Notes under the pieces: model-generated | Told to the model about the DNA's origin: nothing | Databases searched by the model: none | The model's input: the letters and a program-made list of their open reading frames with translations, nothing else | Part shown: positions 539 to 27,575 of the stretch, in pieces | Position numbering within the stretch: position 1 is the first letter of the stretch | How the letters are laid out: every line of letters starts with the position of its first letter | Position numbers and translations under genes: made by a program | IMG/VR virus record: IMGVR_UViG_3300043783_000122 | Coordinates: 1-60,318 of that record | Direction: 5' to 3' (one strand) | DNA from: a virus | Length of the DNA: 60,318 nt

Positions 539-828
539 TTTTCAGGTTCCTGTGGCCCAGGCGGTAGGGCATTAGTGTCCTTGGACTTGTCGGCGAGCTG
601 CTTTTGTAAGCCAGCAATCGTCTTTTGCGCCTGGGCAAACTGTGCCTCGGCGCTGGCCGCCTCGTCGAGCGCTCGGTTGCGCTGGGCTTGCAAGGCATTG
701 AGCACATGTTCCAGGAACGCCGGATTGGACCCCTGCGGGCCGGCCTGCTGCGCCAAGGATGGTAATATACAGCATAAAAGCCAAAATGATATTGTAAGTA
801 ATGTGCCAGCTATATTTAAGAATTGCAT
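535..828 (-). CDS. Exported or anchored coiled-coil protein
   Basis: I place the start at 828 (97 residues) because AGGTGG lies just upstream and the protein then begins with a hydrophobic leader (about 5-25) ending LPSLAQQ, like a Sec signal peptide. The remainder is Ala/Gln-rich coiled coil with a proline-rich tail. A longer upstream start at 888 lies deep inside the tail-fibre gene and is less likely. Function unknown; an inner-membrane spanin-like role is possible. Confidence 0.7.
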   Translation of the reverse strand: MQFLNIAGTLLTISFWLLCCILPSLAQQAGPQGSNPAFLEHVLNALQAQRNRALDEAASAEAQFAQAQKTIAGLQKQLADKSKDTNALPPGPQEPEK

Positions 829-2483
829 GTGCCACCTGTGAGAATCCCCAGAGTGAAGATCAGTGTTTTGGCCTGATTGACCGTGCAAGTCTGCGTGAGG
901 CCGGGATTGCCATTTATTCTGAACCCTGTGGTGGCCTCGATTGTTGTTGTGGCCTTGATCGAGGTATTAGTTAAAAGTGCGCCTGTGCCCGCATCAGTTG
1001 TCGTTCCTATCGACAGCCCACCGCTCGTATTGAACCGAGCGTTCTCTGAGTTATTGATAAAAAACTGTAGCGGGGTATTTCCAGATGTGCCAATAATAAG
1101 TGGCGCCGTACCGTTTGCGGTCAGAAAGCCTTTTCCCTGGTACACGCCAGTGAGATTTACGCCACCGAGACCTACAGTGACGTTGTTTGTGCCATTGCTG
1201 TACAACGCCTCGATGATCGTGGCGTTGCCGCCATTATTGTTTGCCAGCCCAGATTGCGTCGTGGCGTTCTGGTTATTAAGATTGGAAATAAAGAATGGAT
1301 TACCAAAATTGATCGGCGTGTCTCCCGTTAGCGTGAAGTTTGCGCAGTTGCAGAAATTGGCAATCGTGAGCGCCTGTTGAACGGTGATGGCATTGCCAGT
1401 CAAGGCAATAGCTGGCGCCAAATTGACCGGAGACCCAAACGAAAGACCGTTGAAGTATGCACCTGCGGCTGTCCCCACATTGTCAATTGCGATGGCGGCA
1501 TCAAAGCCGCTTGCCTCGGCGCCAGTGTCATTTGTCACCTCAATACCGTAACGATTAGTTGCGGTGCCGCTACCATAAAATCCAGTCTCACTTTGCAAGC
1601 CAACTAAGTCTGGGGTCGAGCCTCCAGTGTCTACGGCCGCGACAGCATCAATACCCAACAAAAATCCGTTAATACTCTTATTGGTATAGGCATTCCCGAT
1701 GACAGCAACCTTATCTCCCGCTGGGGTTCCACTGTTGACAACCATATGGAAAGCGCCAGCTACTGCAACCGTTGTTCCGCTGCTGTCATCTGATTCCACG
1801 TAAAGAGCGCGGCTTTCCGCGTTCAACATCCCATTGGTGAGAGTACTTGGCGCCGTCACTGAACTTGGGTTGGCAACGACGATATTGTTGTAGATCAATG
1901 GCCCGGTCGTCGGCGCAGACGGGCCGGTTTGGGTGACCGTAAATCCTTGATTGGTCGTGCCGGTAGTCGGATTGATCGTCAGCGGGCCTCCAGAGAGCGT
2001 GGCGAGCGATCCTGTTCCACCTGCTGTTGAACAGACCCAGAGATTAGCAGTTGCATTATAAAGAGGGAAGGCACCAGAGGTGGTGCAGAGCGCAGTTAGA
2101 ATACTCGTACCAGGGGCCGAAAGGTAGCCGGACCAGATAAGGTTGTTGAATTGGTCATACACGCTCTCGGCATAATTGCCCGAGCCGAAGATGAAGGCGG
2201 AACCAGCACTGTCTAGGACGACCGGATTGGCATTGGGAGTGTTCTGGAATGCATCCTGCCAAGTCGTCTTGGGGGTGAAGCTGCCAGGAACGCAGATGTT
2301 GTTCGTATTGGGCACGCAGAAATAGACGAAGCCCCCGACGAGCGGGGTGCCAGTGGCATCGAGGAACTGGGTCTTGGCGTTGGGCAAGATGCTGGCGGTC
2401 TGTGCGCTCAGGGGCGTAGCGAGTAGCAATGTGGCGAGGAGCGCCCAGAGCCCACGCGTTGTTCGTGCAACCTTGCCCATCAT
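816..2483 (-). CDS. Tail fibre protein with signal-peptide-like leader
   Basis: The chosen ATG at 2483 overlaps the upstream stop (ATGA) and gives 555 residues. It opens with a basic/hydrophobic leader ending TPLSAQ. Next is a module typical of phage fibre N-termini (about residues 30-110: FLDATGTPLVGGFVYF, then TTWQDAF, NPVVLDSAG and YDQFNNLIWSGYL). The rest is Thr/Gly/Asn-rich repetitive beta structure. Base composition is clearly richer in A+T than the neighbouring injection genes, as expected for a swapped receptor-binding module. Probable host-recognition fibre. Confidence 0.85.
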   Translation of the reverse strand: MMGKVARTTRGLWALLATLLLATPLSAQTASILPNAKTQFLDATGTPLVGGFVYFCVPNTNNICVPGSFTPKTTWQDAFQNTPNANPVVLDSAGSAFIFGSGNYAESVYDQFNNLIWSGYLSAPGTSILTALCTTSGAFPLYNATANLWVCSTAGGTGSLATLSGGPLTINPTTGTTNQGFTVTQTGPSAPTTGPLIYNNIVVANPSSVTAPSTLTNGMLNAESRALYVESDDSSGTTVAVAGAFHMVVNSGTPAGDKVAVIGNAYTNKSINGFLLGIDAVAAVDTGGSTPDLVGLQSETGFYGSGTATNRYGIEVTNDTGAEASGFDAAIAIDNVGTAAGAYFNGLSFGSPVNLAPAIALTGNAITVQQALTIANFCNCANFTLTGDTPINFGNPFFISNLNNQNATTQSGLANNNGGNATIIEALYSNGTNNVTVGLGGVNLTGVYQGKGFLTANGTAPLIIGTSGNTPLQFFINNSENARFNTSGGLSIGTTTDAGTGALLTNTSIKATTTIEATTGFRINGNPGLTQTCTVNQAKTLIFTLGILTGGTCNS

Positions 2484-4522
2484 TGGCTCCCTGTCAGCGC
2501 GTTCGCCCCACTCGGATCGATATTGGCGGGATTCAGCGGGACGACGATGCGCGTCCCAGCGTCTGACCCTGGCAGCCCCGCGTTGGCATCGCCCGACCAG
2601 CCGTGCCATGCGCCCCAGCCGTTGCGCAGCGCATGGTCGAGGGCGAAGTCGATTTGCGCTCGCGTCGTCGCGGGATCGCTCGCGTGCAGGCCGGTCGCTT
2701 TGGTGAACGCATCGCCCAGGCCGGGCACGGCGTTGCCCTTGCTCGTCCCCGGCATTCCGCCATAGTGAAGCTGGAAGGGGCCGAAGGAGCTTCCCTCGTC
2801 TCCGGCATATGCGCCGCCGAGGCCCTCGGAGCGCGCCACCTTGACCGCCACGTCGGGGTCGATCCCACGAGCGCCCGCAGCTTGGCGAATGTACGCCTCG
2901 GTCTCGGCCGTCTTCGGCGAGAATTCTGGATTATAATTCCTCGCCGCGCTGGCGAAGGGGATGATCGGATTGGCCACGAAGCCAGGGCCGCCGCGCAGGA
3001 GCATGTTCGTTCCGGTCTCGGTGTTCAAGAGCGCGCCGCCGAGAGAGTATGGAAGCGTCAACGCGCCAAGGCCGCTGGCGAGAATTGGATGATTCTCGGC
3101 CAGACCGGAGAGGAAGTTCCCCCCGTGCTCGCCCGCGAGGATGCCAATGCCCATGCCAGTCCCCGGCGTAATATGTGGCCCGGCGCTGAGGTTGCGAGAG
3201 AACTGGCTAGCTCCCCCGGCGAGCGTTCCGATGTCCACGGGATTTCCCGCATTCGCAGCAGTCTCACTAGCCTCGCCCGTCCCGCCGTAGTTCTGTTTGA
3301 CCAGACTGAAGAGCTTGGCCGGATTGGCGATGCCGGTCTCGTTGTCCTTGAGCTTGTCCGCAATGATGGCGTTGCGGTATTGATTCCTTGCGAGACGAAT
3401 ATTCGCCGCCTCATCTCCAGCGTTGCGCTCAAGCGCGTCGTCGAGCGAGGTGCGGAACTGATTAGCGTATTGGCCGAGTAGCGGATCGCGCTGGGCATTC
3501 GATAGGGCGCTTCCGCGCTGGGTCAAGTTCTGATAGACCGTGCCGTCGAGATTGCCCTGCTGGATCGCTCGATATATCGGCCCAGCCACGGCGGCCATCT
3601 GGCGATATTTCTCCGGCTGGCCAGCTAGGCCCTCGTGCGCTTGCTGGGCCGTGGCGCGGAACTCGTCGGAGAGCGTGCTGTCGCCAATGTGATACGGGAT
3701 TCGCTGGGCGCTTTGATTGAGCCTATCCCCCGCCGCGTCGAGCGCCGCACTGGTCGTCTCGTTATTCATAAGCTCCGCGTTCGAGCCTGTGGCGGCCATA
3801 ATTCGCCGCGTCAGCGCCTGCAAATCCGGATGAGCCATTCCGAGCACCTTGGCCATGATCCTCGCCGCAGGCGGGCTTCCGGGAATGTTCGCAGTGCGCA
3901 GCGGGACGCCCTGGGCCATATAGCGTCGGGCGAGCTCGGCTATCTCTGGCGAGATGGACGAACGCAGCGGAGCAGCCAGAACACTTATGGCACCACCAAT
4001 GGCGCCTCCGGTGAGCATGTTTCGTTCGAGGTTCTCCCGCATTTCGGGATCATAGAGTGCCGGTGTGGCGCTCTGCCATGTGCCACTGACGATGCCGCTG
4101 AGCGCACGAAGAGGCCACGCCCCGCCGCCAGCGCCGGTCAGCGCGGCACCAAGTTCGGGCGAGAGAGCACGAGCGCCTCGGCCGAGTGCCGTCGCAGCTA
4201 GGACGGCAGGTAGCACCTTGCCAGCGACAGCGGCGTTCCAAGCTTCGCCGGGGTGAGCTTGGGTCCACTCCGCTTTCGCCCGCGCCACGGCCGTCGAGTC
4301 ATGTGAGCCCGTCGCTCGTCCACTCGTCGCAGCATCGACGAAGTGGCGGCCAACGTCCCAGTCAGGTAGGGCCTCACCGCTCGACGTGACGGGCAAATCC
4401 TCGCTAGGGAGCTGCGTCAGTGCGTGATCGATCAGTCGCTGTGAGAATTCGTCCACCGGCTGACGGCCGCCGGAGATGTACTTCTTCACGAGGCCCTGGG
4501 AGAAGGCATCAACGTCGGGCAT
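2480..4522 (-). CDS. Internal virion/ejection protein with lytic transglycosylase-like domain
   Basis: This protein has 680 residues. The first 500 are helical and Ala/Gly-rich, with a hydrophobic region near 105-190, as in large ejected proteins. From about residue 541 there is a lysozyme-like (SLT) segment: VARSEG with candidate catalytic Glu at 566, then SFGPFQLHYGG (about 579-589) and a C-terminal WGAWHGW. In P22-like virions the gene just before the tail fibre encodes gp16-like ejection proteins, so I infer that it opens the peptidoglycan during DNA entry. Confidence 0.8.
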   Translation of the reverse strand: MPDVDAFSQGLVKKYISGGRQPVDEFSQRLIDHALTQLPSEDLPVTSSGEALPDWDVGRHFVDAATSGRATGSHDSTAVARAKAEWTQAHPGEAWNAAVAGKVLPAVLAATALGRGARALSPELGAALTGAGGGAWPLRALSGIVSGTWQSATPALYDPEMRENLERNMLTGGAIGGAISVLAAPLRSSISPEIAELARRYMAQGVPLRTANIPGSPPAARIMAKVLGMAHPDLQALTRRIMAATGSNAELMNNETTSAALDAAGDRLNQSAQRIPYHIGDSTLSDEFRATAQQAHEGLAGQPEKYRQMAAVAGPIYRAIQQGNLDGTVYQNLTQRGSALSNAQRDPLLGQYANQFRTSLDDALERNAGDEAANIRLARNQYRNAIIADKLKDNETGIANPAKLFSLVKQNYGGTGEASETAANAGNPVDIGTLAGGASQFSRNLSAGPHITPGTGMGIGILAGEHGGNFLSGLAENHPILASGLGALTLPYSLGGALLNTETGTNMLLRGGPGFVANPIIPFASAARNYNPEFSPKTAETEAYIRQAAGARGIDPDVAVKVARSEGLGGAYAGDEGSSFGPFQLHYGGMPGTSKGNAVPGLGDAFTKATGLHASDPATTRAQIDFALDHALRNGWGAWHGWSGDANAGLPGSDAGTRIVVPLNPANIDPSGANALTGSQ

Positions 4523-5868
4523 TACTCTTTCCCCTCACGTTGTTCGAGATACTGGTTGAACGTCTTGGCCCAATCGTTCTGGACGTTCGACATGTCGTAG
4601 AAGCCGTGGTTCGCTTGGTCCTGGCGGCCCCGGAAGTGGTCGCTCTCCATGTTCGTCACGTGGGCCAGTTCCTTCATCGAGGTCAGAATCTTCGAGGTCG
4701 CACCGGGGTCGAGATCGATATTGGGTGCCCCCTCGGTCAGGGTCTTTCCCCATTCGGTCTGGGTCATTCTCCCGCCGCCAGCATGGATGAGCTGGGCCGC
4801 TATCTGCGACCCTATGCCGAACATCTGTTTCCGCGCTGCTTGGGCGGACGAGAAGTCGCCAGATGCAATGGCGTCCAGCGTAGCCTTAGGCATTCCGGCA
4901 GCTTGGGCGAGGCCAGCGAGCTCGACACGCATACTCTCTCCCCCGCCCTGGGTGAAATTCTTGAGATACCGCTGGGACTGTTGCATGGTCAAGAGGAGCT
5001 GGTTCGCACTATTCGTCCGCTCATTCACATCCTTGCCATAGTCGGCCGCAGCGTCGAGGGCCTTCTGGCGGAATGATCCTATGCCGGTCTGAGTAAGCTG
5101 TGGCTGTTGCGGTGCAGGCGCAACGCTGGGCGCTCCCCCGCCTGCGCTCTGGAACGGCCCAGCGCCCGGAGCGGTCGAGGTGGCGTTCGGCAGAGCGCCG
5201 GTGGGCGAGCCGACTCCCCCGCTGGGCACCGCGCTGCCCTGCATCTTGTTCACGAAGCCAGGGACGGGGTTACCATTGCCATCATGGAAGGCATCTGGCC
5301 GGTAGTCGATGTTTCCAGCGAGCTCGCCCCCTCGCAGCGAAGATTGCGCCAGTTGCTTCAGGTGGGAGTTTAGCTCCGGCCCCTTGAGACCAGAGATGCC
5401 AGCCATGTACGCCACGGCATCTGGGGCCTCGATGCCATGCGCGGCCATCAGTTCGGTCAGCTTCGACATCACGTCCTTTGGCGTGACGGTATCGCCCTTC
5501 TCTTGGGAGAGGCCATAGGCGGCCGAGCCGATTGCGCTCTGCTTCTTCGCGAAGTTGTCCAGGTTCGTCTTCATCGTCTCGGCCTGGATCAATTGCTTTT
5601 GGGCGAACTGGTTCAGAATATCCGGTGCCATGAAGGCCGTGTCGGGGTTCGTCGAGACGAGCAAGCCAGCCTTGTTATAGTCCATCTGCCCATCCGGGCC
5701 GACGGCCTGCTGCATGAGTGGGCCGAGCGCCTGCCTCGCGCGAAAGGTCTGCTGGAAGAGGGCGTTCTGGTTGAGCTGATTCTGCGCCCCGGCGAACTGG
5801 CCAACCATGCCGAGCAGATTCGGCGTATTCGTTCCCAGCGAGGCATATGGACTGACATCAACGGGCAT
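4522..5868 (-). CDS. Probable internal virion (ejection) protein
   Basis: This is a 448-residue soluble protein rich in Gln, Ala and Gly, with helical N- and C-terminal thirds and a disordered Pro/Gly/Ser-rich middle (about 205-265). It starts by one-base overlap (TAATG) with the gene downstream in the map. No family was recognised from sequence. Its place between the gp7-like protein and the muralytic protein matches P22 gp20, so an ejection role is inferred from position. Confidence 0.75.
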   Translation of the reverse strand: MPVDVSPYASLGTNTPNLLGMVGQFAGAQNQLNQNALFQQTFRARQALGPLMQQAVGPDGQMDYNKAGLLVSTNPDTAFMAPDILNQFAQKQLIQAETMKTNLDNFAKKQSAIGSAAYGLSQEKGDTVTPKDVMSKLTELMAAHGIEAPDAVAYMAGISGLKGPELNSHLKQLAQSSLRGGELAGNIDYRPDAFHDGNGNPVPGFVNKMQGSAVPSGGVGSPTGALPNATSTAPGAGPFQSAGGGAPSVAPAPQQPQLTQTGIGSFRQKALDAAADYGKDVNERTNSANQLLLTMQQSQRYLKNFTQGGGESMRVELAGLAQAAGMPKATLDAIASGDFSSAQAARKQMFGIGSQIAAQLIHAGGGRMTQTEWGKTLTEGAPNIDLDPGATSKILTSMKELAHVTNMESDHFRGRQDQANHGFYDMSNVQNDWAKTFNQYLEQREGKE

Positions 5869-6209: not shown

Positions 6210-6215
6210 AGCGGG

Positions 6216-6974: not shown

Positions 6975-6976
6975 GA

Positions 6977-7792
6977 CTAGGCCGCCCTTTCTGTGTGCAG
7001 ATCGCGTGGGCTCGCTTCGAGCAGATAGAAGTCCCTCTTGGCGAAATCGACCTGAATGAGCGCGTCGCCGATGTTCAGCACGAGCGGGGATTGCACGATA
7101 ACGCTCGCGGGGGCGAACCCCGCCACCTTGGCCCAGCGATTGTAGAGTACGAGGCCCTTGGCCACCACGCCGTTCAGCACGAGCTCGCTCGTCGCGCCGA
7201 CCATACGATCATGCGCTGGCTCGTCGGCATGTGCGAGGTGCCCTCGCCCCTGCTCGGCGAATTGGAGCTCTAGCCGCTCGTGGAACCACTTCCCGCGCTC
7301 TTCGAGGCTAGCCCCGCCCGGTCCCCAGAGCCAGTCAGACCAGCGCAGCGCCCAGTACTGGCACGGCTTTCCGTCGAAGCCCTCGGAGAGGTCATATTCG
7401 TGCCGGCCGTGGATGAGGCGGACGAGACCAAGCGCGGCCTCGTTCTCCGCTGGCACCCTCGTGTAGAGCTCCATCGCCCCGCTGCATAAGAAGATCGTGC
7501 GAAGAGCGTCCTGCACAGCGCGCAGATACGGTCTCCCGCGAGCGGTGAGTCTGGCCATTGTGTGAACCTCATATACCCCGTCCTCTTGGAAGTGGAAGAG
7601 AATGGCGCCCTGAGTGACGTGCTCCTCGTCCTCCGCGACGAGGCCGATGTTTGCCAGATTCTTCAAGAATTCGTCGGCACTAGCCTCCTCACTCGACCCG
7701 AGCAATGCGAACGGGCGAATGGCCTCGTCGGAGAGCAGGTCGTTGATCTTGCTTGCTTCGGCCGAGAGCACCCTGCGAATAACTAGCTTCAT
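6977..7792 (-). CDS. GNAT acetyltransferase-like protein in the virion cluster
   Basis: This protein has 271 residues. Residues 1-150 resemble a GNAT fold: an N-terminal strand-helix, a central VTQGAILFHF strand, then a helix (TARGRPYLRAVQDALRTIF) and a strand followed by NEAALGLVRLIHG. I did not see a textbook acetyl-CoA loop (Q/RxxGxG/A), so enzymatic activity is doubtful. The C-terminal 100 residues are separate. Several podovirus virion clusters carry such a gene beside the transfer proteins. Domain call is tentative. Confidence 0.7.
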   Translation of the reverse strand: MKLVIRRVLSAEASKINDLLSDEAIRPFALLGSSEEASADEFLKNLANIGLVAEDEEHVTQGAILFHFQEDGVYEVHTMARLTARGRPYLRAVQDALRTIFLCSGAMELYTRVPAENEAALGLVRLIHGRHEYDLSEGFDGKPCQYWALRWSDWLWGPGGASLEERGKWFHERLELQFAEQGRGHLAHADEPAHDRMVGATSELVLNGVVAKGLVLYNRWAKVAGFAPASVIVQSPLVLNIGDALIQVDFAKRDFYLLEASPRDLHTERAA

Positions 7793-8097
7793 GACTGGCC
7801 TACGGCCTTGGAGAGCGCGCTCACTTGATCGATCAAATCCTGTATCTGGGCCTGATTGTACGTCGCCTCCGCGTTGCTTGTGTACGTCGCAGGGACACTC
7901 GACGAGCGCTTGACGAACGTGCCGAAGAGATAACGCCAGCTGGGCGTCACATATGCAAAGAGCGCCTGGAGCGAACCCGTAATGGGCTTCCCAAGCGAGT
8001 CGTAGAGTCCCTCGACCTCGCCCTCGACCGTGGCGATAGCCGCGCTATTGTTGGGCGTCTGGGCGGGGAGGCTTTGCGCGCTGAGAGGTGCTGCCAT
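7789..8097 (-). CDS. Hypothetical protein next to the gp10-like hub
   Basis: This gene encodes 102 residues, ATGA-coupled to the GNAT-like gene. The centre carries an aromatic segment (AYVTPSWRYLFG) and the end is a predicted amphipathic helix (about 80-100). In P22 the tail-needle gene follows gp10 at this place, but nothing here looks like the needle's long coiled coil, so I do not make that call. Confidence 0.75.
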   Translation of the reverse strand: MAAPLSAQSLPAQTPNNSAAIATVEGEVEGLYDSLGKPITGSLQALFAYVTPSWRYLFGTFVKRSSSVPATYTSNAEATYNQAQIQDLIDQVSALSKAVGQS

Positions 8098-8098
8098 G

Positions 8099-10561
8099 TC
8101 AGTTATCGCTCGGCGTGGTATCTAGCCACGCCCCTGAAAACGCGGTGAACGCCGATCCCGACCATGATAACCTGAAAACGACATCCCGTGCCATACCCAT
8201 GCGATGCCAGACCATTTGGACCAAGTAGTCCCCTTGCGCGCCCATTGATTGCGGCGGGAGGACGTTGAATGTTCTCCCCCGGTCGTAGGAGATTTCGAGG
8301 GTGACGAGCTGTTGCACGGTGGGATTGACAGCGTCGCCGTTGCCGCAGTCCATATCCAGCGCGAGTCGGTCATATGTCGCCTTCTTTCCATCGTTCAAGA
8401 GATGCGGGAAGCCCCGGCGGCGTACAATCGGTCCGCCGAAGTCGTTATACGTATTCAGATCAAGCACGTATATCTTCCCATTCTGCCAGTCTCCGCAGAC
8501 GTTCAGGCCATACGCCAGCGCCATGCAGTTCGCCCGGATGCGGTTCTGGGCGCCGCTGGCTGGATCGGTCCAGGTACGCTCGTGCCAGAGATTCTCCCCG
8601 ACATCGTACACGATGGTTGCATTCGCGCTGGCGCTCGTCAGCACGTAGAAGATGTGATCCTGCTGCTTATAGACCATGCCGATAGCGTCGGAGAGGTTCG
8701 CGCCGGCGGCGATCCAGCCGGAGATGATCTTCTCTATGGCATACGTGCTGATCCTCCGTGCAGCATAGCCCACTCCCGAGAAGATCGTCCCCAGCCCCGC
8801 TTGGTCGATGCCCAGCCAGAAGGTCTGGAGATCGTGCGTAGCCACGCTATACGGAGCCATACAGCCGTGCTGGAGGAACACTCCGGGCATGATCTGGAAG
8901 GGGAACGACGTGCCCCCAGCGTCGTACCAGACCTCAGCGCTGTTCACCGCGCCCATGAGCCAGATCTCACGATGCAGCACCACGAGCGTCGAGAGCAAAT
9001 CTGGGTATCCCGTCTTCGCCGCGACATAGGTCGGATCGAACGCGGGAGGGTTGATCGCGATGAGGCTATACTGGAAGCCGAAGAGGGTGTTCCCCAGCGT
9101 CGCACTCAGCACGTCCCCTGCGTTATATCCAAGCCCGGTCGGAAGCAGCACGACATTCGTCACCACCCCGCTGACCGTGGTGATGTTCGCCGCAGCGCCA
9201 GCGCCCGAGCCCCCGGTGAGCGCCACATTATTGTACGTCGCACTTCCCGCAGTGCCCGCGCCCGCTCCGATGATCTGGCCCTGGAGGGGCTGGCCGGGGA
9301 CGCCAGTCAGCTCGCTATAGGTGATATTGCTGAGCGAGCTATACCAGTTCCTCGTTCCCGGCTGGGAGAACACCAGGAACGTGTCGAGATACCCTATGCC
9401 CACGCCCCCGAGGAAATTCGGATCGGTAATCACGCCGAACGTATTGACCGCTGTGCCCACATTCGTCACAACGAACGCGAACGCCCCGAGGCCTGGAATG
9501 GCACTCGTCCCGAGCACATCGCCCACGCTATAGCCGTTCCCAGTGTTGTCGAGCGAGAACGAGGTGACAGCCCCGTTTACTATCTGGAACTCTCCCGTCG
9601 CCCCCGCGCCCGTTCCGCCGGAGAGCGGAACATTCGAGTACACTCCAGAGACCGCTCCGACAGCGGTCACTGTGAGCTGCTCGCCGCTAAGCCCCGGCAC
9701 GGCCGCCGAGGCCAACACGTCCCCGACGAGGTAATTCGTCCCAGTCGGATTGAGTGCAACGCTCGTAATCGTCCCGTTCCCACCTGTGACGATGGAGCCG
9801 AATATCGTGGGGACCTGGAGCGTCGCCGGGGCGAGGAAGTTGAGCGTCGTCCCGCCCGTGCCCGCCGTAGCGGTGAAGGTTCCGTTCCACTGGGGAACGT
9901 TCAGCCCGGCCAGGGTGAACGGACTACCTGGAGAGAGCCCATGTGCAACGCTCGTGGTGAGCGTGACGATGCCGCCCAGCCCCGGCCCGATGAGGTTGGT
10001 GATGGGATTGGTGACGGTCAATGTCGCCGTCGCCCCGGTGCCACTACCGCCCGTGAGCGCCGCGCTGGGATAACTCCCGTTCGCCCCGCCAGTCCCGCCG
10101 TTCGTAATGGCCACGCTGCCCGGCTGGCCACTCGACGTGTCCCCCGCATTCGTCACTTGGCCAGCGAGGGGCCGCCCAGCGATTCCCGCCTGCAAATTGA
10201 TCGCATATCCGCTCGTCGTGCCGTCAACGATCACCAGCACATTCCCGTTGTCCTGCATCCCCACGGGAGTCGTCAGCGCGGCGGACAGGGTGCCAAGCAG
10301 GTGCAAGACGAACGCTGAGTCGATGAAGTAAACGTTCTGGCCGCAGACATAGTAGAGCGAGCCGTTCGTCGCAGTGTAGAGCTGCCGCCCGACCCCTGCC
10401 GCCGGGCTGGCCTTCAGTACGAGCCCTGGCGTGAGCTGGTTCGTGTACGGCGCGCTAGCATCCTGGGGGTTCTTCTCGGGATAAAGATTCTGGCACCTCT
10501 GAGCATCCGCGATAACGCTCCGGGCGAGGTACGTACCCCCGAGGAGATTAATTCTGGCCAC
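8099..10561 (-). CDS. P22 gp10-like tail hub (packaged-DNA stabilisation) protein
   Basis: This protein has 820 residues, much longer than P22 gp10 (about 470). The C-terminal half (about 505-820) has the family's features: DLLSTLVVLHREIWLMG, VEVWYDAGG-type strands, FLQHGCMAPYS, and an ending with EISYDRGRTFN and VWHRMGMARDVVF. The N-terminus (LLGGTYLARS, QRCQNLYPE) also fits. Two inserts (about 130-375 and 425-505) consist of repeats with a GxGYxxGDVL signature. It should plug the portal channel below the gp4-like adaptor and bind the fibres. Confidence 0.88.
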   Translation of the reverse strand: MARINLLGGTYLARSVIADAQRCQNLYPEKNPQDASAPYTNQLTPGLVLKASPAAGVGRQLYTATNGSLYYVCGQNVYFIDSAFVLHLLGTLSAALTTPVGMQDNGNVLVIVDGTTSGYAINLQAGIAGRPLAGQVTNAGDTSSGQPGSVAITNGGTGGANGSYPSAALTGGSGTGATATLTVTNPITNLIGPGLGGIVTLTTSVAHGLSPGSPFTLAGLNVPQWNGTFTATAGTGGTTLNFLAPATLQVPTIFGSIVTGGNGTITSVALNPTGTNYLVGDVLASAAVPGLSGEQLTVTAVGAVSGVYSNVPLSGGTGAGATGEFQIVNGAVTSFSLDNTGNGYSVGDVLGTSAIPGLGAFAFVVTNVGTAVNTFGVITDPNFLGGVGIGYLDTFLVFSQPGTRNWYSSLSNITYSELTGVPGQPLQGQIIGAGAGTAGSATYNNVALTGGSGAGAAANITTVSGVVTNVVLLPTGLGYNAGDVLSATLGNTLFGFQYSLIAINPPAFDPTYVAAKTGYPDLLSTLVVLHREIWLMGAVNSAEVWYDAGGTSFPFQIMPGVFLQHGCMAPYSVATHDLQTFWLGIDQAGLGTIFSGVGYAARRISTYAIEKIISGWIAAGANLSDAIGMVYKQQDHIFYVLTSASANATIVYDVGENLWHERTWTDPASGAQNRIRANCMALAYGLNVCGDWQNGKIYVLDLNTYNDFGGPIVRRRGFPHLLNDGKKATYDRLALDMDCGNGDAVNPTVQQLVTLEISYDRGRTFNVLPPQSMGAQGDYLVQMVWHRMGMARDVVFRLSWSGSAFTAFSGAWLDTTPSDN

Positions 10562-11285: not shown

Positions 11286-12512
11286 TTAGACCAAGGTTAC
11301 TTTCTTGATCGTGCCAGCGTCATTGTAGGCGAGATAGACATCACCACCGACAGTATCCTTAAATACATTGTAAAATCCCGCACTCAAATCGGTCGTCGTG
11401 GGAGGGGCGGACAACTGAACGGCCAATACTTCCTCGTTGGCATGTTGGAAGCGATCATTGCCAATAGCGTCTTGATAGAGATAAGCCCCACCACCTCCTA
11501 AAAATCCGCCAGGACCGAGCAACGCTACGGGACTACTCCCTAGGCCGAATACATCGAGATAGCTGTTCTGCCCGTTTACTGACCAATTGACGGCAGAACT
11601 ATAGTCGCCGGTGACATCCGTAAAAGTCGCTGACTCAAATTGAATGACAGCATTGAAATCAACATCAGGGAAAGACCCCGCACTTGCAAAAGGCCCGGTC
11701 GGGCTTTCGAAAAGGAAATTTGCCGCAGAAAAGTCGTAGCCGATCGAGACAAATCCGTTTTGTGTCGCGCGTATCCAAACATTCGGCGAGCCGGTCATAG
11801 TGATGTTATCACTCAACGACAAAGTTGCGCCGTTGCCAGCAGTTAAGAAATCTCCGGTAGTACCAATGCACTTGACGCCGTTCGATGGGCCGTAGGAGCC
11901 GCCATCTCCGATAGCGAAAAATGTTCCGCCGCCAGAGGCGAAAACAACAATGGTGTCTTCGCTAAGGCTTGTTCCGTCGATGGTGCAATTCTTTAATATA
12001 TATGGGACAAGCGACGGTGGAGTAATGAAAATTATCCCGATTGCACCATCGACCTCCCCGGAGGGAATTTCAGTGAACGAAACTAAAGTTATGTCGCTGG
12101 GATCACCTTGAATGACCCAGGCCACGGGAACACCATTTTGCCCCTGCGACGAACTGAAAGGAGCGCATAGAGCAACACCGCCGTAAGCGCCAGCGACAAA
12201 ATTGGTGATGACAACATAGCCGTTGAAATCTAGCGCACCAACATAGGCGTTTGCTTTGGCGAACGTCGCCCACGGCCCATTCACGCCCCCCGTATAAGTC
12301 GCCGACAATCCATTGTAGCTGTCGCTGCCGGTAGAGGCGTTGACGTAGAGGGAGAGGTTGCCGGTGAGGATGGTGCGGATCGGCGTCTCGCCCAGAACGC
12401 CGGCATTATCAATCAGCGCACTGCCGCTTGTTCCACCGGAAATGGCCGTGGCGCCAACAGTCAGCCCGCTGCTTCCTCCGCCATCGCCGCCGCCCAGAAG
12501 AGATGACATCAT
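11286..12512 (-). CDS. Tail fibre/spike with parallel beta-helix character
   Basis: The start at 12512 follows AGGAGCG and gives 408 residues (an upstream start at 12575 overlaps the previous gene too far). After a Gly/Ser-rich N-terminus, residues about 60-110 read LYVNASTGSDSYNGLSA then WATFAKANAY, the usual entry of right-handed beta-helix spikes. Repetitive short strands follow. The C-terminus (NVFKDTVGGDVYLAYNDAG) is a compact end domain. Receptor binding or polysaccharide binding is inferred. A+T content is higher than in the head genes. Confidence 0.82.
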   Translation of the reverse strand: MMSSLLGGGDGGGSSGLTVGATAISGGTSGSALIDNAGVLGETPIRTILTGNLSLYVNASTGSDSYNGLSATYTGGVNGPWATFAKANAYVGALDFNGYVVITNFVAGAYGGVALCAPFSSSQGQNGVPVAWVIQGDPSDITLVSFTEIPSGEVDGAIGIIFITPPSLVPYILKNCTIDGTSLSEDTIVVFASGGGTFFAIGDGGSYGPSNGVKCIGTTGDFLTAGNGATLSLSDNITMTGSPNVWIRATQNGFVSIGYDFSAANFLFESPTGPFASAGSFPDVDFNAVIQFESATFTDVTGDYSSAVNWSVNGQNSYLDVFGLGSSPVALLGPGGFLGGGGAYLYQDAIGNDRFQHANEEVLAVQLSAPPTTTDLSAGFYNVFKDTVGGDVYLAYNDAGTIKKVTLV

Positions 12513-13347: not shown

Positions 13348-14370
13348 CTATGTGCTCTCAAAAGTTCCAGCGATATAGTAGTTATTCGCTGCAGGCGCGG
13401 TTACGAATGGGAGAATAATGCCGCTTGAAGAATTCGCCACAGCTCCCAGCGGCGTCGTCGCGACCGAGGCATTGTACGCGGCCAGAGGATAATTAGTCCC
13501 AGTAGCGTTCACCGAGATGCCGCCAGGGAGTGTTATGGTGAGATTGCCCAAACAGGTTCCAAGCGTTGCGATGTTCACATTGATCTGTATGAAGACCGTT
13601 TTGCCCAGAGTCTTATATCTTCCCGTCACAGTGTCTGTCGTAATAGTTCCGCTTGTCGTACAAGCTACTACGGGCGTATAGGTGCTCCAGGCTGCACCAG
13701 TGTCGCCTGTCCCGCCTGTCGTGACACTCTGTACCACACCGGCGCAGCCAACTGCGCTAGTTGAAAGTACTCCAGAACTTGCGTTGCAGACTACGCCCTG
13801 AGAAGAAAGGCCAGAGAACGTGACCGTGCTACTCGCCGTAAGCGTCGTGTGCGTCGCGGCCGCGGGCGTCGAGGCGCCGAGGATGACAGCATTGAGCCCC
13901 CCGCTCGTCCAAGTCCCACTATCCGGCCCAGTCACGGTGCCAGAGAACATCGGCGAGGCCAGCGGGGCGACGCCAGTCAGGGTGTTCGAGGAGAACGCCA
14001 CAGTTTTATTCGTCAACGTCTGCGTTGCCGCCAACACGGCGAATGTATCTGTCGCTGCGGGGAGCGTCAGCGTCGGCGTTCCAAGCGCGCCTGCCACGGG
14101 CTGGAGCTTAATCGTGCCAGAGCTGGCATTGCCTAACGTGACCGTGCCGAGCGAGCCGCTCGCGCCGAGTGCTAATGCCCCTGCATTAACCGTGGCTAGA
14201 GTATCACTCTGGCAGCCGTTGGAGCCAGAGTTGGTGATAATTTGGTTGACTGAACCGCCGGAGATTGTGCAGCCATTCCCCGTGTCCGGCGGGCCAGAGC
14301 CAACAATGGGTGTCTGGGCGCCTGCGGGTGAAACGGCAAGGACGAACGCGACGCTAAGAGCTTTCCACAT
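13348..14370 (-). CDS. Tail-fibre-like protein with Sec signal peptide
   Basis: Starting at ATG 14370 gives 340 residues with a clear leader, MWKALSVAFVLAVSPAGAQ (AGA-Q cleavage site). The mature part has repeats common in phage fibres: LTNKTVAFSSNTLTGVA, SPMFSGTVTGPDSGTWTSGG, ASSTVTFSGL. A beta-sandwich-like C-terminal domain (about 230-340) starts at WSTYTPVVAC. One base separates it from the upstream gene. A signal peptide on a virion protein is odd (see findings). Confidence 0.82.
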   Translation of the reverse strand: MWKALSVAFVLAVSPAGAQTPIVGSGPPDTGNGCTISGGSVNQIITNSGSNGCQSDTLATVNAGALALGASGSLGTVTLGNASSGTIKLQPVAGALGTPTLTLPAATDTFAVLAATQTLTNKTVAFSSNTLTGVAPLASPMFSGTVTGPDSGTWTSGGLNAVILGASTPAAATHTTLTASSTVTFSGLSSQGVVCNASSGVLSTSAVGCAGVVQSVTTGGTGDTGAAWSTYTPVVACTTSGTITTDTVTGRYKTLGKTVFIQINVNIATLGTCLGNLTITLPGGISVNATGTNYPLAAYNASVATTPLGAVANSSSGIILPFVTAPAANNYYIAGTFEST

Positions 14371-14371: not shown

Positions 14372-14836
14372 TTATTGGCTCGACACAATGAAGATGTCAC
14401 CAGACGTTCCGGTGACGAAGATGCTGTCTGTCGCCACTCCTGTTCCACCGATGGCGCACGTCATGCCCGAGAATTCCGGTGCGGTATCACCCAGCCGAAA
14501 GCTAGTAGTGGTATCTGCTGGACTCGCGCCGAAGAAGACATAGCCTACATCGGTGTTAGCTGCAGGAATGTACTGTATCGCGCACCCTGCGCGAGCGGTG
14601 TTTGCAGCAAGTGCCAGCACATACGTATTCGTGACGGCAACAGTGATCTTCACTTGTGTAGTAGACTTACCGTTGCCCCCACCGAGCAGGGTGACAGGCA
14701 GCGGCCAGGAGGGCGTGATGGGCGAGAATGGAGGATTTCCAGTCGTGGAGTAGCTTGGAACGACGGGGGCTTGGGCATGGGCGAGTGGAGAGTAGAGCGC
14801 CCCAAGCAGCACGAAAGCGGCGAGACCTTTGCGCAT
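14372..14836 (-). CDS. Exported structural-cluster protein
   Basis: The start at 14836 is set by AGGAGGG and yields 154 residues beginning MRKGLAAFVLLGALYSPLAH, ending AHA-Q, a standard signal peptide. The mature part is beta-rich (VKITVAVTNTYVLALAAN, CAIQYIPA, GYVFFG, DIFIVSS) and could be a small virion decoration or fibre-cap domain. Two cysteines (in GCAIQ and TCAIG) could form a disulphide if it is exported. Confidence 0.78.
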   Translation of the reverse strand: MRKGLAAFVLLGALYSPLAHAQAPVVPSYSTTGNPPFSPITPSWPLPVTLLGGGNGKSTTQVKITVAVTNTYVLALAANTARAGCAIQYIPAANTDVGYVFFGASPADTTTSFRLGDTAPEFSGMTCAIGGTGVATDSIFVTGTSGDIFIVSSQ

Positions 14837-14861: not shown

Positions 14862-15359
14862 CTACGATATCGCCCCACAATACCACGCGCCATTCGCCGG
14901 GGCGAAGCACAGCACGTTCTTCCCGGTCGTCACGCCGGTGTAGGCGGTCGAGCCAGTCGTCCCGTTGATGGTGTCCTGGGTGCCCAGCACGGCGCTCGCG
15001 GTGATCGGGGCGCCATACAGATCGATCGTCTGGCCAGCGGCGTTGCCAATCAGTATCTCCTTCCCCGAGATCGCGGCGGGGAGGCAGACGTAGCCGGTGC
15101 TCGCGCTGGTCTTGACCTCTTGCAAGGCGTTCGAGTCGAGTTGGGTGCAATTCGCCTGACCCAAGGTCTGGGAGACGGAGAGACCTCCGTGTGCCCCGTA
15201 GCCACTCCCAGTGATATACGCCTGGGTGATGGCATAGAGGTTGTTGAGCTGGTCGCCCAGGTACGGCCCGTTCACAGCGGGGAGCGGAAGTTGGGCGGCC
15301 CAAGCCAGGGCGACACTCGTCACAAGTGCGGCGAAGCCGATGGTCAATTTGCGAAGCAT
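14862..15359 (-). CDS. Exported structural-cluster protein
   Basis: This protein has 165 residues with a signal peptide (MLRKLTIGFAALVTSVALAW, AWA-A site). The mature part begins LPLPAVNGPYLGDQLNNLYA and is Gly/Thr-rich. The C-terminal third (IDLYGAPITASAVLG, CFAPANGAWYCGA) looks like a fibre-tip or decoration domain. It lies directly after the gp4-like adaptor gene. Confidence 0.78.
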   Translation of the reverse strand: MLRKLTIGFAALVTSVALAWAAQLPLPAVNGPYLGDQLNNLYAITQAYITGSGYGAHGGLSVSQTLGQANCTQLDSNALQEVKTSASTGYVCLPAAISGKEILIGNAAGQTIDLYGAPITASAVLGTQDTINGTTGSTAYTGVTTGKNVLCFAPANGAWYCGAIS

Positions 15360-15368: not shown

Positions 15369-16202
15369 CTAGTTGATCTGATCGCTGAAGACGTTGTAGA
15401 CGCCTGGACGGACGAGCGAGGCTGGCATCCGCAGGCGCGACAGCGCGGTATTCGCCCCCCGGATGACCTGCATGGACTCTTTCGCCCGCTGGACCAGCAC
15501 CTCGTCCATGGGCAGGCGATAGGCCGTCCTCGCGATGACGGCGAGGTTCAGATAGAGCGCCTGGAAGTACTCGTTCGGGATGATGAGCTTCTCGGTGAGC
15601 GCAGCGAACTCGCTCAGCTGGCGCTTCACGAGGATATGGATTTCGTAAATGTTCGCCTGGGGAACGGGCCAGGGGTAGAGCTGCCCGAGCGGATACGGCG
15701 CGGGATCGTAGAAGACGAACTCGGGGAAGGTGGTCAGTTGTTTCAAGGTAATGCGATTGTAGTCCTCCCAGGACTCCAGCAGCTCCAGTTGATAGTCCAC
15801 CTGATTCGGCGAGCTCTGCACGAGCTGGCGGAAGAAGTTTCCATCCTCCAGGCGATCCGGGCGAACCGGCGTCGCGATGTCGCCCCCAGGGCCGACGGAG
15901 TAGCTCTTCGCCCCGGTGCTGACGATGGAGAGATTCTCCAGCCCCCAGACGAGGTAACGCTTGCGTTGCCACTGGGCGAGGAGGAAATTCAACCTTGTGA
16001 ACATATCGTTCACATCCTCGGCCATCGCAGTCTGGCCGACGCCGATCACCCCAGCGTCCCGCAGGGCGAGATTGATGAGCGTCTGAGGCGTCGTTCCGTC
16101 GAGCGGAGGCGCGGCTGGCTTCGGCCCAAAGTCTGGCCCGAAATCGTTGTTGAAATCCTGGTTGCTCACAACGTCGGCCGAATCTCCAAGGCCGCGCTGC
16201 AT
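15369..16202 (-). CDS. P22 gp4-like head-tail adaptor (tail accessory factor)
   Basis: This protein has 277 residues. The core from about 38 matches the gp4/tail-completion pattern: TPQTLINLALRDAGVIGVG, then EDVNDMFTRLNFLLAQWQ, then SYSVGPGGDI, and near 200 a helix ELSEFAALTEKLIIPNEY preceding ALYLNLAVIAR. Such proteins bind under the portal after packaging. The start is uncertain: ATG 16202 overlaps the previous gene by 37 bases and lacks a good ribosome site. Later GTG codons (16172, 16169) are alternatives. Confidence 0.87.
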   Translation of the reverse strand: MQRGLGDSADVVSNQDFNNDFGPDFGPKPAAPPLDGTTPQTLINLALRDAGVIGVGQTAMAEDVNDMFTRLNFLLAQWQRKRYLVWGLENLSIVSTGAKSYSVGPGGDIATPVRPDRLEDGNFFRQLVQSSPNQVDYQLELLESWEDYNRITLKQLTTFPEFVFYDPAPYPLGQLYPWPVPQANIYEIHILVKRQLSEFAALTEKLIIPNEYFQALYLNLAVIARTAYRLPMDEVLVQRAKESMQVIRGANTALSRLRMPASLVRPGVYNVFSDQIN

Positions 16203-16741
16203 GTCACAGGCGAGCCTTGAGCAGTCGTCACTCGGAAGAACAGGGAGGTCGAATTGCTATATACCGTATTGTTCGACACTGCCTGTGCGGTGTTAGCAGC
16301 GTTCACTCCAGCGGTGGTAATAGTCACAGCGGTCACGGGGATGAGCGCAAAGCCGGTCGCACCTGCTCCGGTGTAAATGGCCACGCTTGCACTTGACGCG
16401 CTGGCGGAGCAATTATAGAGCCGTAAGATTGGCCCCACAAAATTTGGAAGCCCGTTAGGAAGGAAGAAGGAGAACGGCGTATCGGCGACGGAGTTGAGGT
16501 TGATTCCGACGCCAATCGGGACTGTGTAAGCTGGGTTGCTCTGAAAGATGGCCGAGTTCATCGCATTCAGCGTCGTGCGCAGCGCGCTCGCCGCGATCTG
16601 CTGCTGGCCGTTGGTCGGGAGGTTCTGGAGGATGATAGCGGCGACGCTGGCCTGGGTAGCGGGCGACTGCGCACGACAAGGCGAAGCGAGGGTCGCTAGG
16701 ACCCCCGCCAGAACGGCCGCTCGTAGCGCGAAACGAGTCAC
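16166..16741 (-). CDS. Exported fibre-cluster protein
   Basis: This protein has 191 residues with a leader MTRFALRAAVLAGVLATLAS ending CRA-Q. Next come a helical segment (IAASALRTTLNAMNSAIFQ) of a kind seen in fibre N-termini and a beta domain with DTPFSFFLPNG, RLYNCSASASS and VAIYTGAGATGF, which I associate with small phage appendage domains. It shares 4 bases with the upstream gene. Confidence 0.78.
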   Translation of the reverse strand: MTRFALRAAVLAGVLATLASPCRAQSPATQASVAAIILQNLPTNGQQQIAASALRTTLNAMNSAIFQSNPAYTVPIGVGINLNSVADTPFSFFLPNGLPNFVGPILRLYNCSASASSASVAIYTGAGATGFALIPVTAVTITTAGVNAANTAQAVSNNTVYSNSTSLFFRVTTAQGSPVTCSAALEIRPTL

Positions 16742-19658: not shown

Positions 19659-19691
19659 GTTCGCTCTCCTTCGGCCCCTCACGGGCGGCAA

Positions 19692-20558: not shown

Positions 20559-20559
20559 A

Positions 20560-21134: not shown

Positions 21135-21149
21135 CTTGTCCTCATCCTC

Positions 21150-24745: not shown

Positions 24746-26140
24746 CTAGCGTCCTAGCCATCCATGGCCACTCTGGTTCCCAGTGATGCGCAACGTCGTG
24801 CCTCCAGGATTCTCTGCTCCGATCCCCGCGCCCGACAGCACATTCATCATCGGCCCAAGGCCGAGCGACTTCGGGCGTTCGAGCTTGCACTCAATGGCCT
24901 TCACCCTCATCCCGGTCGATATGGCGAAATACTGGAACGCGTCTGCTGCATCGCTCGCCCAATTATGATCGGGCAACGTCGAGAACCTCCTCGTCACCGG
25001 ATCGACGATGTACTGGTAGTGGTGCAGCGCATGGAGCCCTTCGGCGCATTTCTCTTTATCGAAATAGCAGGAGGAGAAGACCGTGCGGGCCGCGTTCATC
25101 TTATCGGCGACGGAGAGCTTGGGGACGATCTTCTTTCTGTCCCAGCCATAGACCGCGGCCACTTGTTCCTCGATGGAGAGCTTCGTGCCCAGCGTCTTGC
25201 TCTTGGCGTCGTGCGGCAAAAAGATCATGCCGTAGATGTACCCACGATGCTGCATCACCTCAAGGTAGTGGTCAATGTGTTTGAGCCTGTTCTGATAGAA
25301 GTCGATCAGATGCCACTCAAAGCCGATACGCTGGACGAACCAGATGCTCGTGTGGTCGCTGCGGCCCAGATCGAAGATCGCCAGAACCGGCTGCGTTCGA
25401 TCGAGCGGGACGTGGCATATTCGGCCCTGGAGCTGCGCCTCGCGAAGCTCGTCGGCAAAGATCGCGCCATCGAGAACGACCTTCGTGTGGCCCTCGTAGA
25501 CGTGCAGATACTCGTCCGGGTCCGTCACCCGCATGTGCTCGATCTCGGCGAGAACCTCGGGCGCGAGCCAGTTATTGTCGGCAAAGGTGGTCTTCACGAC
25601 GACCGAATTTGGCGGGGGAGCGTGCAAGACGAAGTGCTGGTAGATGAAGTCCTCGTCCAGCTCGGGGTTCAAGCTGAGCCACATCTCAGCATCTTTGTTG
25701 CGAAAGATGGTCGGCCCGAGGATGTTGAAGCTCTCCTTGCTCATCTTGGCCGCTTCCTCGACCCAGGCCCGCGTGATGCCCTCGTAGCTCTTGACCTTCT
25801 GGACGTTATGCCTGAGGCCCTCGAAGGAGAACTGGGTGCCGTTCGCCGCCCCACGGCCGAGGATGTGGGCCTGCTGAACCTCATAAAGGTAGTTCATGCC
25901 CATATGAGATATTTGATCGGCCAGAAGTTTGTGAACCGACTCGTCCAGGGACTTCTGGAGCTCACGGGCACAGAGGATTCGCTCGGTCCCAGTCAGGCCG
26001 AGGATGAGAAGCGCTCGGGCGAAGCTCCAGCTCTTCAGGCCCATACGGCCACCATAGGCGACCTTATAGCGTGCGGGCTGGAACAAGAATTGGAGCTTGT
26101 CGGGAAAGTCTATGCTCGTCGTGGCTATCGGGTTGGACAT
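24746..26140 (-). CDS. terL: Terminase large subunit
   Basis: This protein has 464 residues, the packaging ATPase-nuclease. The ATPase part has a variant Walker A, GGRMGLKSW (30-38), and Walker B RAWVEEAAKM (124-133). The nuclease part has LAIFDLGRSDHTSIW with candidate metal ligand Asp 257 and a C-terminal NWASDAADAFQYFA. This is the PBSX/Terminase_3 type. A nested palindrome (26167-26228) lies just upstream of its start. The likely small subunit is unusually far away, at 32372-32989. Confidence 0.94.
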   Translation of the reverse strand: MSNPIATTSIDFPDKLQFLFQPARYKVAYGGRMGLKSWSFARALLILGLTGTERILCARELQKSLDESVHKLLADQISHMGMNYLYEVQQAHILGRGAANGTQFSFEGLRHNVQKVKSYEGITRAWVEEAAKMSKESFNILGPTIFRNKDAEMWLSLNPELDEDFIYQHFVLHAPPPNSVVVKTTFADNNWLAPEVLAEIEHMRVTDPDEYLHVYEGHTKVVLDGAIFADELREAQLQGRICHVPLDRTQPVLAIFDLGRSDHTSIWFVQRIGFEWHLIDFYQNRLKHIDHYLEVMQHRGYIYGMIFLPHDAKSKTLGTKLSIEEQVAAVYGWDRKKIVPKLSVADKMNAARTVFSSCYFDKEKCAEGLHALHHYQYIVDPVTRRFSTLPDHNWASDAADAFQYFAISTGMRVKAIECKLERPKSLGLGPMMNVLSGAGIGAENPGGTTLRITGNQSGHGWLGR

Positions 26141-26166
26141 CTGGCGAGCCTGACTGGGCGAACGAA

Positions 26167-26228
26167 GGGCGGGGCTTTAGGTGGGCCATGTTGTCGTGAC
26201 AACACCGACCCACCCTAAACCCCGCCCC
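26167..26228. repeat. Nested palindrome, copy A of an intergenic element
   Basis: The arms GGGCGGGGCTTTAGGTGGG (26167-26185) and CCCACCCTAAACCCCGCCC (26209-26227) pair over about 18 positions with two one-base bulges. The centre is a perfect GTTGTC-GT-GACAAC. It lies between the tail-fibre-like gene and the terminase gene. It could end transcription from 26256, stabilise mRNA, or be a mobile palindrome. The centre resembles copies B (43798) and C (35223). Confidence 0.75.
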
Positions 26229-26255
26229 ACTAGCAGGGCAGAAACTTCGCCGCGC

Positions 26256-27575
26256 TTAGAAGCCACTCCAGGCAGTTATGATGCCCGAGGCGCCCGAGGC
26301 GTCGGCCACGGTCATAGAGATACCGACTGCAGCAGTCGTTCCCGAGGCTATCGTGCACGTCGCCATGACCTGTGTAGTCGAGGGAATGAACGTGATAGTC
26401 GTATCAGTCCCAAGTCCTGTGCAGGCATTCGCCGTCGTCTCCGCAGTCGTCGTGAACCCCGCGAAGCCGGTCGTGTACGCCATCGTCGGCGCCTTGTACA
26501 TCGGCACCGGGAAGACTACAGGGAAGCTGAGCGCGGTGCCCGAGGTGGTGAAGTGCCCCTGCCAGCGGGAGAGAAGGGTCGCTCCCTCATGGACGGAGTA
26601 GACGAACTGGAGATTATCCAGCAACTCCGCCTGCCTCGGGCGAATTTCATACGTCGAGGGGAGGGCCGAGCGCTCCAGCTGCGCCCCGACGAAGGCGAAG
26701 CCGTCGGTGGCGCCGGAGCCCGAGGTCGTGGGGGTGAAGCAGATGCCAACGCCAAGCTCGGTCGCTGTGCTTGGCACCGCCGCCGTGGTGAAATATCTCG
26801 CGAACGCCGTGGTGAGCGAAATCGGCGTGTTCACCAGCGTCGAGATGCCGGTCCAAGCGGGGGTGATGAGCGGGGTGGTCGAGGGTGCGACCGCCAAGCC
26901 CTCGTCCGTGCCGGTGCCCGCGATGATGACAAGGTTCGCCGTGTTGCCGTTATCGGCGGCCAGACCGGCCAGCGCGGCCACTTGCACGGAGAAGCTAACG
27001 GTCGAGCCAGCGGCCAAGAGCGACTGGGGACTCGGCACGGCTTGCCAAGCGCAGATGGGCTGGGTGAGCGCACCCGAGGTGCGGAATACCTTGGCGACCT
27101 GGGTGAAGCCGGACGGCGCCGTCGGGGAGCTCGTCACGATGGCCGAGCGGCCCGCGCCCGAGCCGACGTTAGTCACGAGCACCCAGCGGTCGGCGATCAG
27201 GGCGGCGGAGGTGGGAGCGGAGGTCGTGGCCCCAGTGACGGTGCCGGTTCCATTGACTTGGGTTCCGAGCAGATCACCATTGCCCAGCAAGTTCCTGGGC
27301 GAGCTCGCCCCACCAAATTGCGTGATGCGCATTCTCTCGGTCTGGGGATTCTGGCCCTGGGAGAGTCCAGTATCGACCGGGGCGAGCTCATTCCCCGTAA
27401 TAGGCGCACCGGGCGGGAGGAAATACTGACACGCCCCGTTGACCTTCGAGGCACAGTCGGTGTTGGGCGTCGTGCTGCCCGCGAGCGGCAAGCCCGGCCA
27501 GAGGCCCTGTTGCGCGTTGGCGGTCGCGCATAGCGCGATAACGCCCACCGCGGCGAGAAGAATCTTCTTGAACAT
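26256..27575 (-). CDS. Tail-fibre-like protein with Sec signal peptide
   Basis: ATG 27575 with GGAG upstream gives 439 residues. The leader MFKKILLAAVGVIALCATAN ends ANA-Q. The mature protein has fibre features: SPRNLLGNGDL near 95, ALIADRWVLVTNVG, then the C-terminal ERSALPSTYEIRPRQAELLD followed by LQFVY, a junction I know from fibre tips. It lies apart from the main fibre cluster, upstream of the terminase. Receptor binding or decoration is inferred. Confidence 0.82.
   Translation of the reverse strand: MFKKILLAAVGVIALCATANAQQGLWPGLPLAGSTTPNTDCASKVNGACQYFLPPGAPITGNELAPVDTGLSQGQNPQTERMRITQFGGASSPRNLLGNGDLLGTQVNGTGTVTGATTSAPTSAALIADRWVLVTNVGSGAGRSAIVTSSPTAPSGFTQVAKVFRTSGALTQPICAWQAVPSPQSLLAAGSTVSFSVQVAALAGLAADNGNTANLVIIAGTGTDEGLAVAPSTTPLITPAWTGISTLVNTPISLTTAFARYFTTAAVPSTATELGVGICFTPTTSGSGATDGFAFVGAQLERSALPSTYEIRPRQAELLDNLQFVYSVHEGATLLSRWQGHFTTSGTALSFPVVFPVPMYKAPTMAYTTGFAGFTTTAETTANACTGLGTDTTITFIPSTTQVMATCTIASGTTAAVGISMTVADASGASGIITAWSGF

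Follow-up and report, generated by a model that had tools for sequence, protein, structure and literature searches.

Predicted Sec leaders on tailspike and fibre-like proteins of a P22-like podovirus suggest export ahead of docking at lysis

IMG/VR virus record IMGVR_UViG_3300043783_000122 is a stretch of 60,318 bases, analysed here at its full length (the window), that displays the structural module of an uncultivated P22-like podovirus on the minus strand. Six late genes, named here by their first coordinate (816, 13348, 14372, 14862, 16166 and 26256; Table 1), are predicted to encode adhesion proteins with a Sec-type leader, and the head, packaging and ejection proteins are without one. From the sequence, we propose with a probability of roughly 0.66 that the six proteins are exported through Sec, cut, disulfide-bonded in the periplasm and docked at lysis.

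PHROG matches within the module comprise the major head protein (phrog_283), Hc3 (phrog_578), Ad3 (phrog_637) and an ejection protein (phrog_598), and the window portal matches 195 records of cultured phages, several of which are annotated as P22-like. An earlier note on this DNA had listed six Sec-type signal peptides on fibre or virion-like proteins, whose genes alternate with ordinary cytoplasmic head and tail genes. All six were recovered at the same positions and cut sites, and leaderless head and ejection genes are indeed interspersed with them. No match was obtained for any of the six proteins in Pfam and PHROGs searches.

Leaders were evaluated with a home-made signal-peptide scorer, trained on 23 known Escherichia coli leaders that were kept outside the test set, which consisted of three annotated MG1655 segments. 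At the threshold of 7 the scorer accepted 20 of 26 exported, 0 of 61 cytoplasmic and 2 of 22 inner-membrane proteins of E. coli. The six proteins all score above this threshold, between 8.1 and 19.4, while all other structural genes of the window score 3.7 or lower. By Sec and signal peptidase I criteria, the six leaders have the n-h-c architecture with small residues at -3 and -1, the predicted cuts (slash) being ATPLSA/QTASILP in 816, SPAGA/QTP in 13348, PLAHA/QAP in 14372, ALAWA/AQL in 14862, SPCRA/QSP in 16166 (GTG start) and ATANA/QQG in 26256. The cut of 16166 is ambiguous, with an Arg at -2 and the top-scoring cut seven residues downstream of CRA/Q. Over their first 40 residues none of the six proteins contains a lipobox, and no Tat motif was found in them, while the mature parts show no clear membrane anchor (highest 19-residue hydropathy 1.08–1.55).

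Hydrophobic starts of GC-rich open reading frames (ORFs), or wrong start codons, might mimic such leaders: high-GC DNA gives Ala/Leu-rich frames, and the scorer accepts 2 of 168 spurious window ORFs, even with the start chosen freely. At this spurious-ORF rate, six leadered proteins among 28 genes would have P ~1e-6, and at an assumed rate of 5% P ~0.002. The start codons of the leadered genes are credible because of their tight packing with upstream stops, 816 and 16166 starting in 4-base ATGA/GTGA overlaps, 26256 74 bases downstream of a stop and the other three 1–25 bases downstream. A Shine-Dalgarno-like GGAG or AGGAG precedes most of the six genes; none is seen at 13348. With the 4-base overlaps, the negative controls and the conservation of leaders across divergent families described below (33/34 and 9/9), chance or misannotation is largely refuted and retains a negligible probability.

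Leaders on spikes and fibres of related phages

Judged from domain homology and gene place, 816 is the tailspike. The first 100 residues past its leader match cultured-phage spikes and, when used as a profile, the head-binding domain of PDB 7eeq (E 1.3e-13) and the tail spike 9vyg (~5e-11). No second head-binding domain of this type occurs in the window, and a whole-record search of relatives returned one copy of such a spike per record in nine records, window included. The 816 gene comes after ejection-type genes in the window and in relatives, and a like order is found in P26218 and ctfPj964.

The primary product of 816 does not begin at the head-binding domain, since a 27-residue leader precedes it, and the predicted cut restores the start. 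The predicted mature start, QTASILPNAK, matches the leaderless starts MATLLPEGKQSF (phage P26218), VATLLPNGKQQF and MTAQILPNAK (L083); further leaderless spikes start with MAATILPNAK (L084) or MTQLLPNGK (PAE2), and that of P26218 with MATLLPEGK. In L268 the mature start ATLLPNGKQQF is identical over these residues to that of the leaderless ctfPj964 spike, (V)ATLLPNGKQQF. All nine spikes with this domain have leaders, with scores of 10.9–22.4, and the cut coincides with the domain start in seven; in L269 and L270 a related start, ATLLPPGEQCF, stands behind the leader, and an insert separates it from the remainder of the domain.

The earlier note had suggested a survey of related phages for the same leaders. 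Relatives were fetched with the portal and the 26256 protein, and a codon-usage gene caller returned 1841 genes with a complete 5' end. Leaders were found on the spikes of all nine records that hold this head-binding domain (the window being one) and on 33 of 34 homologues of 26256, though the region past the leader is so divergent in this family that alignment is barely possible. In contrast, the core proteins of relatives were without leaders in the case of the major head protein (0/63), the scaffold (0/44) and TerL (0/40); the portal was called leadered in 4 of 105 cases, through alternative starts, and both calls among 44 core genes of near relatives were apparent artefacts. Leader calls on Hc3 (MKTPILGQSYVARSVNA), ejection protein, portal and Ad3 homologues were likewise set aside as artefacts of the scorer or of alternative starts. 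Long stretches from six near relatives show leadered genes at three recurring places, as in the window: the spike gene follows the ejection genes, a variable set lies between Ad3 and Hc3, and a fibre gene adjoins the terminase.

The AlphaFold2 model of 26256 (pLDDT 74, moderate) gave tail fibre matches in BFVD at E ~1e-16 and better, and weak matches to carbohydrate-binding modules in a Foldseek search of the PDB, the latter with low to middling TM-scores and suggestive only. The model thus suggests a tail fibre with a carbohydrate-binding-like fold; no head-binding domain was detected in this protein. In the Ad3-Hc3 slot, 14862 gave a model of moderate confidence (pLDDT 68, beta domain near 80), which VIA-align aligned with tailspike depolymerase 24qj (Z 11.4), CBA120 TSP4 (9.6) and T4 gp9 (8.8), and its beta domain is predicted to resemble phage spike or connector domains. 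As for its neighbours, 13348 has a fibre-like TLPAATDTFAVLAATQTLTNKT stretch common to many other viral contigs, the slot of 14372 is occupied in relatives by other leadered genes, and a search for relatives of 16166 found none. Searches of viral contigs for relatives of 14372 and 16166, and of cultured phages for relatives of five of the six leadered proteins, found none.

Among cultured phages, leaders occur in Bradyrhizobium phage ppBdUSDA122-1 on the tail fibre (865 aa) and on the adjoining fibre-like gene, and none on the tape measure, portal and head proteins. Siphophages released by its host strain USDA 122 have been observed by transmission electron microscopy (PMC10127595). Acetobacter phage phiAX1, called incomplete by its authors' software (PMC8566455), has a leadered 4-Cys gene in the Ad3-Hc3 slot. 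In L260 (21065-22555), the annotated start of the ppBeUSDA76-1 major capsid protein gives a leader-like N-terminus (13.7) and is probably wrong. The closest portal to that of the window lies in a Hyphomicrobiales metagenome-assembled genome (47%), which is a host hint only.

Cysteines of the mature proteins

The number of mature cysteines is even in all six leadered proteins. Together they contain 28 Cys in 1712 aa (1.6%), compared to 27 in 6762 aa (0.4%) for the other structural genes of the window (p 4e-7), among which the count is odd in 7, even in 4 and zero in 11. The parity test with loose leader calls was diluted by artefacts and was redone with stricter calls. With all loci pooled, leadered proteins were then 57 even, 6 odd and 2 without Cys, while leaderless proteins were 384 even, 597 odd and 385 without; counted by cluster, even to odd was 16:5 for leadered versus 133:189 for leaderless proteins (Fisher p 0.0025).

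In the alignment of the 26256 family, 20 rows have Cys at both columns 235 and 253 and five rows have it at neither, Cys at columns 89 and 128 is found jointly in the same six rows and never singly, columns 297 and 406 are invariant, and columns 477/494 and 529/554 are mostly paired. Leaderless homologues show the converse: that of 14862 in L259 is without all four family cysteines, and those of the 26256 domain in Hyphomicrobiales genomes are without the Cys pairs. Leader and cysteines are thus gained or lost jointly within one fold, as predicted by export to an oxidising space. The mature leadered proteins therefore look oxidised, which is evidence independent of the leader.

Export, docking and alternative roles

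The earlier note had offered two readings of the leaders, export of the proteins or a moved module that serves as a virion attachment peptide. Export gains from the leaders on nine of nine spikes, the cut at the native domain start and the even, co-varying cysteines, and we hold Sec export of the leadered proteins to be very probable. The attachment peptide is disfavoured: the attachment domain lies behind the cut, and identity is 29% in the leader versus 47% in the mature part. Because the leader sequence drifts and the docking domain that follows is conserved, such a role is unlikely. When the six leader DNAs were aligned globally, z was 0.7–3.6 against base shuffles, with no clear copied DNA, and we read these values as the common ATG and codon bias instead of a copied module. 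The same drift weighs against a further possibility, namely that the leader is not for export and acts as a hydrophobic tip anchoring the fibre in particle or membrane, or as a signal for loading, comparable to the N-terminal 'signal peptides' on PVC cargo. The leaders do stand at the particle-binding end, and PVC injection systems load via N-terminal peptides, to go by a title cited in PMC13314943; the cut at the native domain start, a cysteine pattern typical of exported proteins and the leaderless homologues of the docking domain (7eeq, cultured spikes) nevertheless make an anchor or loading signal highly improbable.

In the export route that we favour, the tailspike, fibres and small connector-type proteins of this P22-like podovirus would be made as Sec preproteins, translated late from an operon common to head genes and passed through SecYEG. 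Signal peptidase I would then leave an N-terminus like that of leaderless spikes, and the mature adhesion proteins would fold and form their disulfide bonds in the periplasm, while heads, ejection proteins and neck would be built in the cytoplasm. Upon envelope failure at lysis the two pools would meet and the spikes would dock through the head-binding domain. P22 tailspikes add spontaneously to finished heads in vitro. Presence of the tailspike in virions is, on these sequence data, likely. We infer docking on particles at lysis as somewhat better supported than not, and give slightly favourable odds to a split assembly, in which the nucleocapsid is made in the cytoplasm and a secreted, disulfide-bonded recognition apparatus is attached only at cell opening. 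If so, particles could not adsorb before lysis.

Export for a purpose outside the particle is the main rival. The proteins would then be adhesins of the periplasm or cell surface that prevent re-adsorption to debris or to the infected cell, cover host polysaccharide or have a role in lysogens. Leader and cysteine pattern account for such export equally well, the carbohydrate-binding-like fold of 26256 would suit it, as would the failure to detect a head-binding domain in that protein, and other leadered phage proteins, such as Lom, belong to the host envelope (PMC12309495). However, the head-binding domain of 816 is as similar to those of leaderless spikes (55%) as to that of another leadered spike (54%), and no record holds a second spike of this type besides the leadered one. 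The genes also lie in the late structural module, two of them translationally coupled, and their products have neither a lipobox nor an anchor-type hydrophobic stretch in the mature part. We thus consider a role outside the particle unlikely.

Several observations weigh against export and docking of all six proteins. The window encodes a leaderless spike-like protein (11286-12509), so that not every fibre-like gene is leadered and not all adhesins would take the export route. Fibres are leaderless in several cultured Rhizobium phages and in ppBeUSDA76-1 and ppBeUSDA76-2, and the route would therefore be clade-specific; in the wider portal family the spike is mostly leaderless (2 leadered of 22), and the leader is therefore a clade-level trait. 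In addition, the spike tree gives weak support for more than one leader gain, some leadered proteins outside the window have odd Cys counts, and informative relatives are few or absent for 13348, 14372 and 16166, leaving leader and even Cys as their evidence. The product of 11286-12509 (minus strand), which adjoins the leadered fibre genes, shows by eye the VNASTGSDSYNGLS motif typical of beta-helix proteins; no family match was found for it.

The reducing cytoplasm is generally regarded as the place where structural proteins of tailed phages fold and assemble. Known podovirus tailspikes (7eeq, Rhodoferax P26218, Pseudomonas PAE2 and, by role, P22 gp9) resemble 816 in the head-binding domain at the mature N-terminus and in a gene beside those of ejection proteins, but they start directly at the domain, whereas 816 has a predicted cleavable Sec leader ahead of it and an even Cys set. 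Exported endolysins, either signal-anchor-release (SAR) or signal-peptide lysins, are likewise late phage products that rely on the Sec pathway of the host before lysis; they are however lysis enzymes, with uncleaved leaders in the SAR type, and the window proteins are virion-type adhesins. Among virion proteins, pIII and pVIII of filamentous phages have Sec leaders and pIII has disulfides, but both are membrane-anchored and assembled during extrusion, while the phage of the window is tailed and the mature parts of its leadered proteins show no anchor. The Lom, Bor and Llp envelope proteins of tailed phages are also leadered products adjoining tail genes (for Lom, PMC12309495), but are outer-membrane barrels or lipoproteins, unlike the fibre-fold proteins of the window with a head-binding domain on the spike.

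No earlier report of Sec leaders on tailspikes or tail fibres was found in the open-access papers searched, which leave out most subscription journals. The parts are of known kinds, while their combination and the implied assembly route appear to be new. If tailspikes pass through Sec, the rule of cytoplasmic assembly fails, spikes may carry disulfides and final assembly becomes a lysis-coupled step, which raises the place and time of spike docking as a question for the bench. Tools that equate 'signal peptide' with 'bacterial' would also misassign host-recognition genes of soil phages; for target proteins of diversity-generating retroelements, the lack of signal peptides has been taken as support for an origin in phages (PMC6199706).

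Coordinates and other genes of the window

Table 1. Leadered genes, their predicted leaders and the genes bordering the fibre slot (gene names are first coordinates; cuts marked by a slash)
Feature	Coordinates	Strand	Basis
Tailspike precursor (816), 555 aa; leader, head-binding domain and distal part; 8 mature Cys	816..2483	-	score 12.6; 7eeq profile match
Predicted tailspike leader, 27 aa, cut A/QTASILP	2403..2483	-	scorer; leader in nine of nine records
Tailspike head-binding domain, begins at predicted cut	2094..2402	-	alignment and profile match
Hc3 head closure (P22 gp10-like), no leader; other border of Ad3-Hc3 fibre slot	8099..10561	-	phrog_578, E 3.5e-77
Fibre-like protein (13348), 340 aa; 6 mature Cys	13348..14370	-	score 8.1; partial relatives only
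Predicted 13348 leader, 18 aa	14317..14370	-	scorer
Small leadered protein (14372), 154 aa; 2 mature Cys	14372..14836	-	score 17.8; one leadered homologue in L006
Predicted 14372 leader, 21 aa	14774..14836	-	scorer
Small virion-type protein (14862), 165 aa; 4 mature Cys	14862..15359	-	score 12.5; relatives; AlphaFold2 model
Predicted 14862 leader, 21 aa	15297..15359	-	scorer
Ad3 head-tail adaptor (P22 gp4-like), no leader; one border of Ad3-Hc3 fibre slot	15369..16202	-	phrog_637
Leadered protein (16166), 191 aa; GTG start overlapping upstream stop; 2 mature Cys	16166..16741	-	score 10.5
Predicted 16166 leader, 24 aa if cut at CRA/Q	16670..16741	-	scorer; cut ambiguous
Putative tail-fibre protein (26256), carbohydrate-binding-like fold, 439 aa; 6 mature Cys	26256..27575	-	score 19.4; fold matches to tail fibres
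Predicted 26256 leader, 21 aa	27513..27575	-	scorer

Leader-like starts also occur elsewhere in the window. In the lysis region, 33117-33500 (minus strand) encodes an RlpA-like protein with a leader and a double-psi beta-barrel (PF03330, E 2.4e-20), and ppBdUSDA122-1 has an RlpA-family gene that is leadered too. Two small leadered proteins outside the structural module, 33737-34273 (minus strand) and 47677-48123 (plus strand), score 12.3 and 13.9 and have odd mature Cys counts of 3 and 5, respectively. The short protein of 535-828 (minus strand) has a hydrophobic start (MQFLNIAGTLLTISFWLLCCILPSLAQ, score 3.7) and a likely coiled coil, and may be a spanin or carry a weak seventh leader. The N-terminus of 7789-8097 (minus strand), MAAPLSAQSLPAQTPNN, resembles the end of a signal peptide, and the homologues in L252 and L256 start equally short.

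Finally, 31313-32218 (minus strand) encodes a protein with an Rv2525c-like glycoside-hydrolase domain (PF08924), a possible endolysin, while in 52410-53558 (plus strand) a uracil-DNA glycosylase domain is fused to a 3'-5' exonuclease domain.

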